Shown: piece after piece, positions 38,243 through 43,121 of the stretch
Position numbering within the stretch: the first letter of the stretch is position 1
How the letters are laid out: the number at the start of each line of letters is the position of its first letter
Assembly: GCA_037481935.1 (NCBI GenBank)
Contig: JBBFKQ010000001.1
Span: 18,741-82,740 of the forward strand
Length of the DNA: 64,000 nt
Origin: Aquificaceae bacterium
GTDB lineage: Bacteria; Aquificota; Aquificia; Aquificales; Aquificaceae
Direction of reading: 5' to 3'
The notes under the pieces: model-generated
Seen by the model: the letters and a program-made list of their open reading frames with translations, nothing else
The model's database searches: none
Told to the model about the DNA's origin: nothing
Position numbers and translations under genes: made by a program

Positions 38243-38269
38243 CTTTCATCCTCTTTTCATTTTTGAGTG

Positions 38270-38292
38270 ATTATACTCCTCCATAAGGAGGA
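38270..38292. promoter_or_regulatory. Bidirectional promoter core and GGAGG palindrome
   Basis: Minus strand TATAAT (38275-38270) and plus strand TATACT (38272-38277) overlap by four bases. Adjacent is the perfect palindromic hairpin TCCTCC-ATAA-GGAGGA (38277-38292), whose right arm is the Shine-Dalgarno sequence of the gene at 38299. If transcription starts near 38284 only the right arm is in the mRNA, so the palindrome would then be a DNA site or a coincidence. Confidence 0.5.
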
Positions 38293-38298
38293 AGTGCC

Positions 38299-38562
38299 AT
38301 GAAAAAGCTCGTCCTTTTGTCTGCAGCCCTTATGGGCCTAAGTGGAGTAAGCGCCGCAGGCGACAGGGTTTACCTTTCCCTAGGGGTAAACCTTGGATAC
38401 CCGTCCTGTCCTGAAAGGAGGGTGGTGTATGCGGACAGAAGCCCGGATGTGGTCATAATAAGGCCCACACCCGTATATTACTATGCCCCTTACGAAAAGG
38501 TGGTCATAATAGAAAAGCGTGGACCCAAGCGCTGGAAAAAACACCCACGCTGGGACTGGTAA
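38299..38562 (+). CDS. Small exported basic protein, function unknown
   Basis: 87 residues. Signal peptide MKKLVLLSAALMGLSGVSAA, predicted cleavage near residue 20; the mature part is rich in Tyr, Pro, Lys and Arg (TPVYYYAPYEK, KRWKKHPRWDW). AAGGAGGAA lies about 6 nt before the ATG. It resembles short periplasmic or surface proteins with PxYY stretches, but I know no function. Confidence 0.8.
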   Translation: MKKLVLLSAALMGLSGVSAAGDRVYLSLGVNLGYPSCPERRVVYADRSPDVVIIRPTPVYYYAPYEKVVIIEKRGPKRWKKHPRWDW

Positions 38563-38602
38563 AGCTTACAGAGATGTAACTAAGTTAAAGGTAAAACCCT
38601 TC

Positions 38603-38652
38603 TTGACCGCACCTGAAGAGAGACATATACTTTCAGGGAAGGAGGTGCGGTC
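38603..38652 (+). promoter_or_regulatory. Promoter of the pfpI operon flanked by a 10-bp inverted repeat
   Basis: TTGACC (38603-38608), 17-bp spacer, TATACT (38626-38631). The perfect inverted repeat GACCGCACCT (38605-38614) / AGGTGCGGTC (38643-38652) brackets the -10 and start site, and the right arm includes the GGAGGTG ribosome-binding site next to the ATG. The arms are 28 bp apart, which suggests an operator bound at two half sites or, in a longer read-through RNA, a hairpin hiding the ribosome-binding site. Confidence 0.7.
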
Positions 38653-39201
38653 ATGAAGAAGGTTCTTATCCTCACTGGAGATGCTTCAGAAGCCCTTGAG
38701 GTCTTCTATCCCCTTTACAGGTTAAGAGAAGAGGGTTTTGATGTGAAGGTGGCAACGCCTGGCAGAAAGCTGGTTCAGACAGTTGTCCACGACATGGAGC
38801 CAGGTGTGATGGAGACCTATACGGAGAAGCTTGGCTACAGGCTGGAGGCAGACCTTACCCTCAAGGAGGTAAATCCCGAAGACTTTGATGCCCTTTTTAT
38901 ACCCGGGGGGAGAGCTCCCGAGTATGTAAGGACTCATCAGAAAGCTGTAGAGGTTGTCAGGCACTTTTTTGAGAAGAACAAGCCTGTGGCAACTCTCTGC
39001 CATGGTCCTCAACTGCTGGTGGCGGCAGGTGTGGTAAAGGGCAGGAAGGTGAGCGCCTTTTATGTGCTGAAAGCCGATGTTGAGATGGCAGGGGGTGAGT
39101 ATGTGGACGGTGTGGTTGTGGATAAGAACCTTGTTTCTGGCAGAGCCTGGCCAGACCTTCCAGAGATAATGAGAGAGTTTCTTAAACTCTTAAAGGGTTA
39201 A
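38653..39201 (+). CDS. DJ-1/PfpI-family protein
   Basis: 182 residues, one class I glutamine amidotransferase-like domain. Nucleophile elbow VATLCHGPQLL (Cys116-His117), GG in FIPGGRAPEY. Relatives are proteases, chaperones or glyoxalase/deglycase-like enzymes; the exact activity cannot be assigned. First gene of an operon with a flavodoxin-like protein and a molybdenum hydroxylase, under the promoter at 38603-38631. Confidence 0.9.
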   Translation: MKKVLILTGDASEALEVFYPLYRLREEGFDVKVATPGRKLVQTVVHDMEPGVMETYTEKLGYRLEADLTLKEVNPEDFDALFIPGGRAPEYVRTHQKAVEVVRHFFEKNKPVATLCHGPQLLVAAGVVKGRKVSAFYVLKADVEMAGGEYVDGVVVDKNLVSGRAWPDLPEIMREFLKLLKG

Positions 39202-42679: not shown

Positions 42680-43042
42680 CTAATCCCCACTCTCCTCCGG
42701 ATAGGTTATGCCTTCAACGGACATAAACTCTATATACTTCAGACCCCAGCGGTGCATGGCTTCAAAGATATCCTCAAGGCTTCTGCCTATTTCCGTAAGC
42801 TCGTATTCCACCATGGGAGGCACCACGGGATAGATAGTTCTGCTTACAAGCCCACAGGCTTCGAGCTCCCTGAGCTGTTTTGAGAGCATTCTCTGGGTGA
42901 TTCCAGGTATTGCCCTTTGAAGCTCAGAAAACCTCTTTTTGCCGTTCATGAGGTTTTTTAGTATGTAGAGCTTCCATTTACCGCTCAGCGTCTGTATGGC
43001 GAGCTCTGCAGGGCAAACTACTGAGTTGTTTCTATGTTTCAT
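42680..43042 (-). CDS. HxlR-family transcriptional regulator
   Basis: 120 residues, a winged helix-turn-helix typical of HxlR: CPAELAIQTLSGKWKLYILKNL, GITQRMLSKQLRELEACGLV and the wing VVPPMVEYELTE. A conserved Cys (residue 10) near the N-terminus is the redox-sensing position in YodB/HypR/QorR relatives. TATACT lies 7 nt before the ATG and no ribosome-binding site is present. It lies between two redox operons, 2 bp from the end of the thioesterase gene. Confidence 0.92.
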   Translation of the reverse strand: MKHRNNSVVCPAELAIQTLSGKWKLYILKNLMNGKKRFSELQRAIPGITQRMLSKQLRELEACGLVSRTIYPVVPPMVEYELTEIGRSLEDIFEAMHRWGLKYIEFMSVEGITYPEESGD

Positions 43043-43049
43043 GGAAGAT

Positions 43050-43101
43050 AGTATATATCAAAACAGACCGTTCTTGACAGACATGCATCGGGGGATAAAC
43101 T
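43050..43101. promoter_or_regulatory. Divergent promoters: HxlR gene (-) and redox operon (+)
   Basis: Minus: TATACT (43055-43050), 7 nt before the HxlR ATG. Plus: TTGACA (43074-43079), 16-bp spacer, TAAACT (43096-43101), leader of about 15 nt with AGGAGGT. CAGAC occurs twice (43064-43068 and 43078-43082) between them, a possible but unproven regulator contact. Confidence 0.65.
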
Positions 43102-43121
43102 CAAAGGCAGGAGGTATAACC

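Follow-up and report, generated by a model that had tools for sequence, protein, structure and literature searches.

For the sigG gene of B. subtilis, it has been proposed that a large hairpin in the read-through RNA from PspoIIG blocks translation; this hairpin cannot form in RNA made from PsigG (PMC5942855). A related arrangement is found in phage T4. Early and middle read-through RNA hides the ribosome-binding site of I-TevI, and the late promoter starts inside the structure, which frees that site. Sequestration of the ribosome-binding site has also been shown for the T4 genes e and soc (both PMC2988022).

The locus described here is in several ways similar. It lies in a window of 64,000 nucleotides from an Aquificaceae bacterium, where "window" means the entire stretch of DNA that was analysed. 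As with sigG, a long hairpin is predicted solely for RNA that reads through from upstream, and not for transcripts that begin at the gene's own promoter. As with I-TevI, the own promoter is predicted to start its RNA within the structure, which would leave the ribosome-binding site free, a release that has been described for I-TevI. There are also differences. The phylum and the gene are not those of sigG, the sigG stem measures 20 or more base pairs, and the sigG read-through transcript has been described, whereas here we infer one. The T4 cases are part of a phage timing switch with experimental support, while the present case is a prediction for a chromosomal operon of a thermophile. The logic is already known from sigG and T4 I-TevI, and this repeat would join that kind rather than found a new one.

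The gene concerned, pfpI, is the first of its operon and is located at 38653 to 39201 on the forward strand. It belongs to the DJ-1/PfpI family (Pfam PF01965, E=9.8e-48; TIGR01382). The operon as a whole encodes this protein, a flavodoxin-like protein, a 2Fe-2S protein, a molybdopterin hydroxylase and a thioesterase. At its end, on the opposite strand, is a gene for an HxlR-family regulator (42680 to 43042; Pfam PF01638, E=1.6e-34), with YtcD, HxlR, HypR/YybR and YodB as the nearest solved relatives. Upstream of pfpI, on the same strand and 90 bp away, is an open reading frame of 87 amino acids (38299 to 38562) without a Pfam match. No intrinsic terminator was found between this 87-aa gene and pfpI, and the gene is the likely source of read-through.

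The 87-aa gene has some features of its own. Ahead of it lies a direct repeat, TTTCAT-N5-TTTCAT, with an 11-bp period (38244 to 38260), which is kept in the related genomes G004, G007 and G013. A -10 follows at 38272 to 38277, without a good -35. Because this repeat sits like a PhoB/OmpR-type box, its placement suggests that the 87-aa gene may be inducible by a response regulator. The sequence TCCTCC-ATAA-GGAGGA at 38277 to 38292 makes a small anti-Shine-Dalgarno hairpin on the gene's own Shine-Dalgarno sequence, and a C-rich stretch is also present in that region in G004, G007 and G013.

The pfpI promoter consists of a -35 hexamer TTGACC (38603 to 38608) and a -10 hexamer TATACT (38626 to 38631), separated by a 17-bp spacer. 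These are followed by the Shine-Dalgarno sequence AAGGAGGT (38639 to 38646) and the ATG start codon at 38653. All of these elements are on the forward strand, and both hexamers and the Shine-Dalgarno sequence are conserved in relatives. Judging from the -10, transcription of the operon is predicted to start at around 38637 to 38639, which would give a leader of about 15 nt.

A first-pass annotation of this DNA had reported a perfect 10-bp inverted repeat around the promoter, with the left arm over the -35 and the right arm over the ribosome-binding site up to the ATG. That description is right. The arms GACCGCACCT (38605 to 38614) and AGGTGCGGTC (38643 to 38652) match exactly and are spaced 28 nt apart. 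The repeat also extends outward beyond these 10 bp, to CTTCTTGACCGCACCT (38599 to 38614) and AGGTGCGGTCATGAAG (38643 to 38658), both read on the forward strand, which are complementary at 15 of 16 positions. The left arm includes the -35, and the right arm runs from the 3' part of the Shine-Dalgarno sequence through the spacer and the ATG into codon 2 of pfpI.

Our main reading, to which we assign a probability of about one half, is that the inverted repeat works in RNA as a read-through insulator. Polymerase arriving from the 87-aa gene would transcribe both arms, and in the resulting RNA these would pair over about 15 bp, so that the Shine-Dalgarno sequence and start codon of pfpI end up inside the stem. 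Translation of pfpI from this RNA would then be blocked, and the tightly packed later genes would probably fare likewise. RNA from the operon's own promoter should lack the left arm, because that arm precedes the predicted start and holds the -35; therefore only read-through RNA from the 87-aa gene could fold in this way. The own-promoter RNA would start at about 38638, past the left arm, with its Shine-Dalgarno sequence open. This would mean that expression of the operon depends entirely on the activity of its own regulated promoter, with the regulation probably exerted by HxlR at 38566 to 38579.

Folding calculations are in line with this. The read-through RNA is predicted to form one long hairpin of -32.1 kcal/mol (z = -5.0), and none of 200 shuffled sequences is as stable. 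Freeing the region from the Shine-Dalgarno sequence to the ATG is predicted to cost 16.1 kcal/mol at 37 C and 9.7 at 75 C in the read-through RNA, against about 4.6 and 2.0 kcal/mol in the own-promoter RNA. Among the 59 starts ranked in the window, the pfpI start in read-through RNA is the most occluded (rank 1/59); such ranks were taken within the window and within sampled stretches of relatives. Occlusion of the Shine-Dalgarno sequence was also considered as a general trait of promoters with short leaders, and it is not the rule among the sampled starts. A search of Rfam gave no match above threshold.

The first-pass annotation had called the repeat unlikely by chance. For the bare 10-bp repeat this argument fails, because perfect 10-bp repeats are common in this window: with loops of 3 to 60 there are 13 overlapping matches, in about 6 places, where simulation gives a mean of 6.4. 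For the extended repeat the argument holds within the window, which contains one 15/16 repeat against Markov simulation means of 0.03 (n=30) and 0.017 (n=60). Scaled to the genome of 1.69 Mb, this rate comes to about one such repeat expected by chance. The placement of the repeat and its fate in relatives must therefore carry the argument.

This genome-wide expectation favours the main rival, which is a serious one: that the palindrome is fortuitous and without function. In this lineage, the -35 and its flank would by coincidence be complementary to the Shine-Dalgarno sequence and start codon, and template switching (quasipalindrome mutation) may have improved the match. Template switching can make perfect stems in a single event (PMC8794818). 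We regard this as quite plausible, at somewhat less than even odds. Besides the present genome, the operon is intact in G004 and in the near-identical pair G007 and G013 within the genus. The -35, the -10, the Shine-Dalgarno sequence and hxlR are kept in all three.

In G004, where the pfpI DNA is 78% identical to that of the window, an RNA helix of 13 bp forms in the same register. The start ranks first of 83 for occlusion, with 18.2 and 8.3 kcal/mol as the corresponding energies. All three base pairs that differ between the two stems are still paired, having gone from G-C to U-A, from C-G to U-G and from A-U to G-U; the first of these is a compensatory change, with both bases replaced. When random bases were placed at the 16 sites where G004 differs, occlusion was retained in 3% of trials, in what was a post hoc test on two sequences. 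These results speak against a chance palindrome. A covariation shuffle on the two rows was uninformative (267/500). G007 and G013 on the other hand favour chance: the promoter, Shine-Dalgarno sequence, upstream gene and operon are kept there, yet the stem is absent and occlusion is at background (rank 17/72 in G007). The retention of the RNA stem in G004 is as such suggestive evidence for function, and not strong evidence.

Conservation of the arms in relatives was also where the first-pass annotation had placed its own test. As a DNA repeat the arms are not conserved, which counts against the annotation; as an RNA stem they are partly kept, in G004 and not in G007 or G013. The annotation had offered two explanations for the repeat. 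Its hairpin in read-through RNA finds support in the anatomy, in the calculated energies of folding and in the retention of the RNA stem in G004. The other explanation, that the arms are half-sites for the HxlR protein, is not supported.

In this second explanation the arms would be a DNA operator, two half-sites bound by a regulator (HxlR or a different one) that loops the promoter or spans it. The arms are indeed positioned over the -35 and the start region, and an HxlR gene is found where the operon ends. The half-sites are however lost in G007 and G013, although both genomes retain this promoter and HxlR, and in G004 the arms are not symmetric as DNA, owing to the G-U changes. Since G-U pairs preserve RNA helices and not DNA half-sites, such changes point to a role in RNA more than to a repeat bound by protein. 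The hairpin also fits better because the stem is kept in G004 and absent from G007 and G013, while the promoter and hxlR are present in all four genomes. In addition, the intergenic region with hxlR's own promoter (43043 to 43121) contains no copy of the half-site. The search for further half-sites that the first-pass annotation had suggested found no enrichment, with 13 matches in the window at up to 2 mismatches versus 13.3 expected. Genome-wide, the exact half-site occurs only as the two arms and one further copy. MarR-type regulators usually bind palindromes of 16 to 20 bp (PMC10458429), unlike these arm half-sites, which are 38 bp apart. With a far better conserved operator candidate nearby, described below, we consider the half-site reading very improbable.

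Least probable of all is a role of the hairpin at the 3' end of the 87-aa gene's mRNA, either as a terminator or as a barrier to decay: there is no other terminator-like structure between that gene and pfpI, but no U run follows the stem, and the stem is missing in G007 and G013 despite the same gene pair.

The better operator candidate is the palindrome TTACAGAGATGTAA at 38566 to 38579, of the form TTACAN4TGTAA. It is conserved, and is located exactly 17 bp before CCNTTCTTGAC (38597 to 38607), which holds the -35. The combination TTACAN4TGTAA-N17-CCNTTCTTGAC occurs with this fixed spacing in six genomes from two genera (G000, G004, G007, G013, G009 and G014), in every case beside this operon or the hxlR that goes with it; the G009 palindrome has one mismatch. 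In G014, which is of another genus, hxlR and flavodoxin-pfpI are divergent, and the palindrome is in the intergenic region that separates them. Genome-wide there are 7 copies of TTACAN4TGTAA, versus 2 for a reversed-pattern control. Further matches to the palindrome exist in G022, G062, G084 and G086, where the operon genes are absent.

HxlR thus probably acts at this separate palindrome, as a candidate operator regulating the operon. The palindrome is centred about 65 bp before the predicted transcription start. B. subtilis HxlR is a positive regulator (PMC7835342), and activation by HxlR would be consistent both with this and with the position of the palindrome. The situation resembles that of the HxlR/MarR-DUF24 operators of B. 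subtilis (YodB, HypR, HxlR), in that a family member is in the operon and a short conserved palindrome is upstream of the promoter. The inverted repeat, in contrast, has neither the conservation nor the spacing expected of such operators. In the literature we found no base-level HxlR or YodB operator for comparison.

The N-terminal Cys of the regulator (C10) is kept in 4 of 4 aligned genomes of the genus, and the G014 protein also has an N-terminal Cys. Two residues after this Cys the regulator has no Lys. A Lys at that position is what we take to be the crosslinking partner in the formaldehyde switch of B. subtilis HxlR.

In compact genomes, where genes are tightly spaced and clear terminators are few, neighbouring operons must be kept apart. 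If the read-through insulator is real, a -35 with a second role as an anti-Shine-Dalgarno sequence, in foreign RNA only, would achieve this at little cost. In a thermophile the stem must also survive high temperature. A fuller version is put forward tentatively, and taken as a whole is rather more probably wrong than right: the genus would have placed a stress-detoxification operon behind an unrelated inducible gene and insulated it translationally with a promoter-internal hairpin that does not melt at growth temperature. A single stretch of DNA would then be both the -35 and, in read-through RNA, the anti-Shine-Dalgarno sequence. As a side result, the palindrome provides a cross-genus HxlR operator candidate over a DJ-1/flavodoxin/molybdenum-hydroxylase operon, and this is directly testable.

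Some smaller observations concern the same promoters. The element ACCNTTCTTGAC was considered as a regulator site; the pfpI promoter and the intergenic region of hxlR both contain it. Because it overlaps the -35, it may be no more than promoter context. Between 43066 and 43078, in the same intergenic region of hxlR, the sequence GACCGTTCTTGAC matches AACCCTTCTTGAC at 38595 to 38607 in the pfpI promoter, and relatives are similar in this respect. In G009 (L036:8396-8544), pfpI has eroded to a remnant with a large internal deletion, while the promoter, flavodoxin and hydroxylase remain; the hydroxylase frame there is reported with one TGA.
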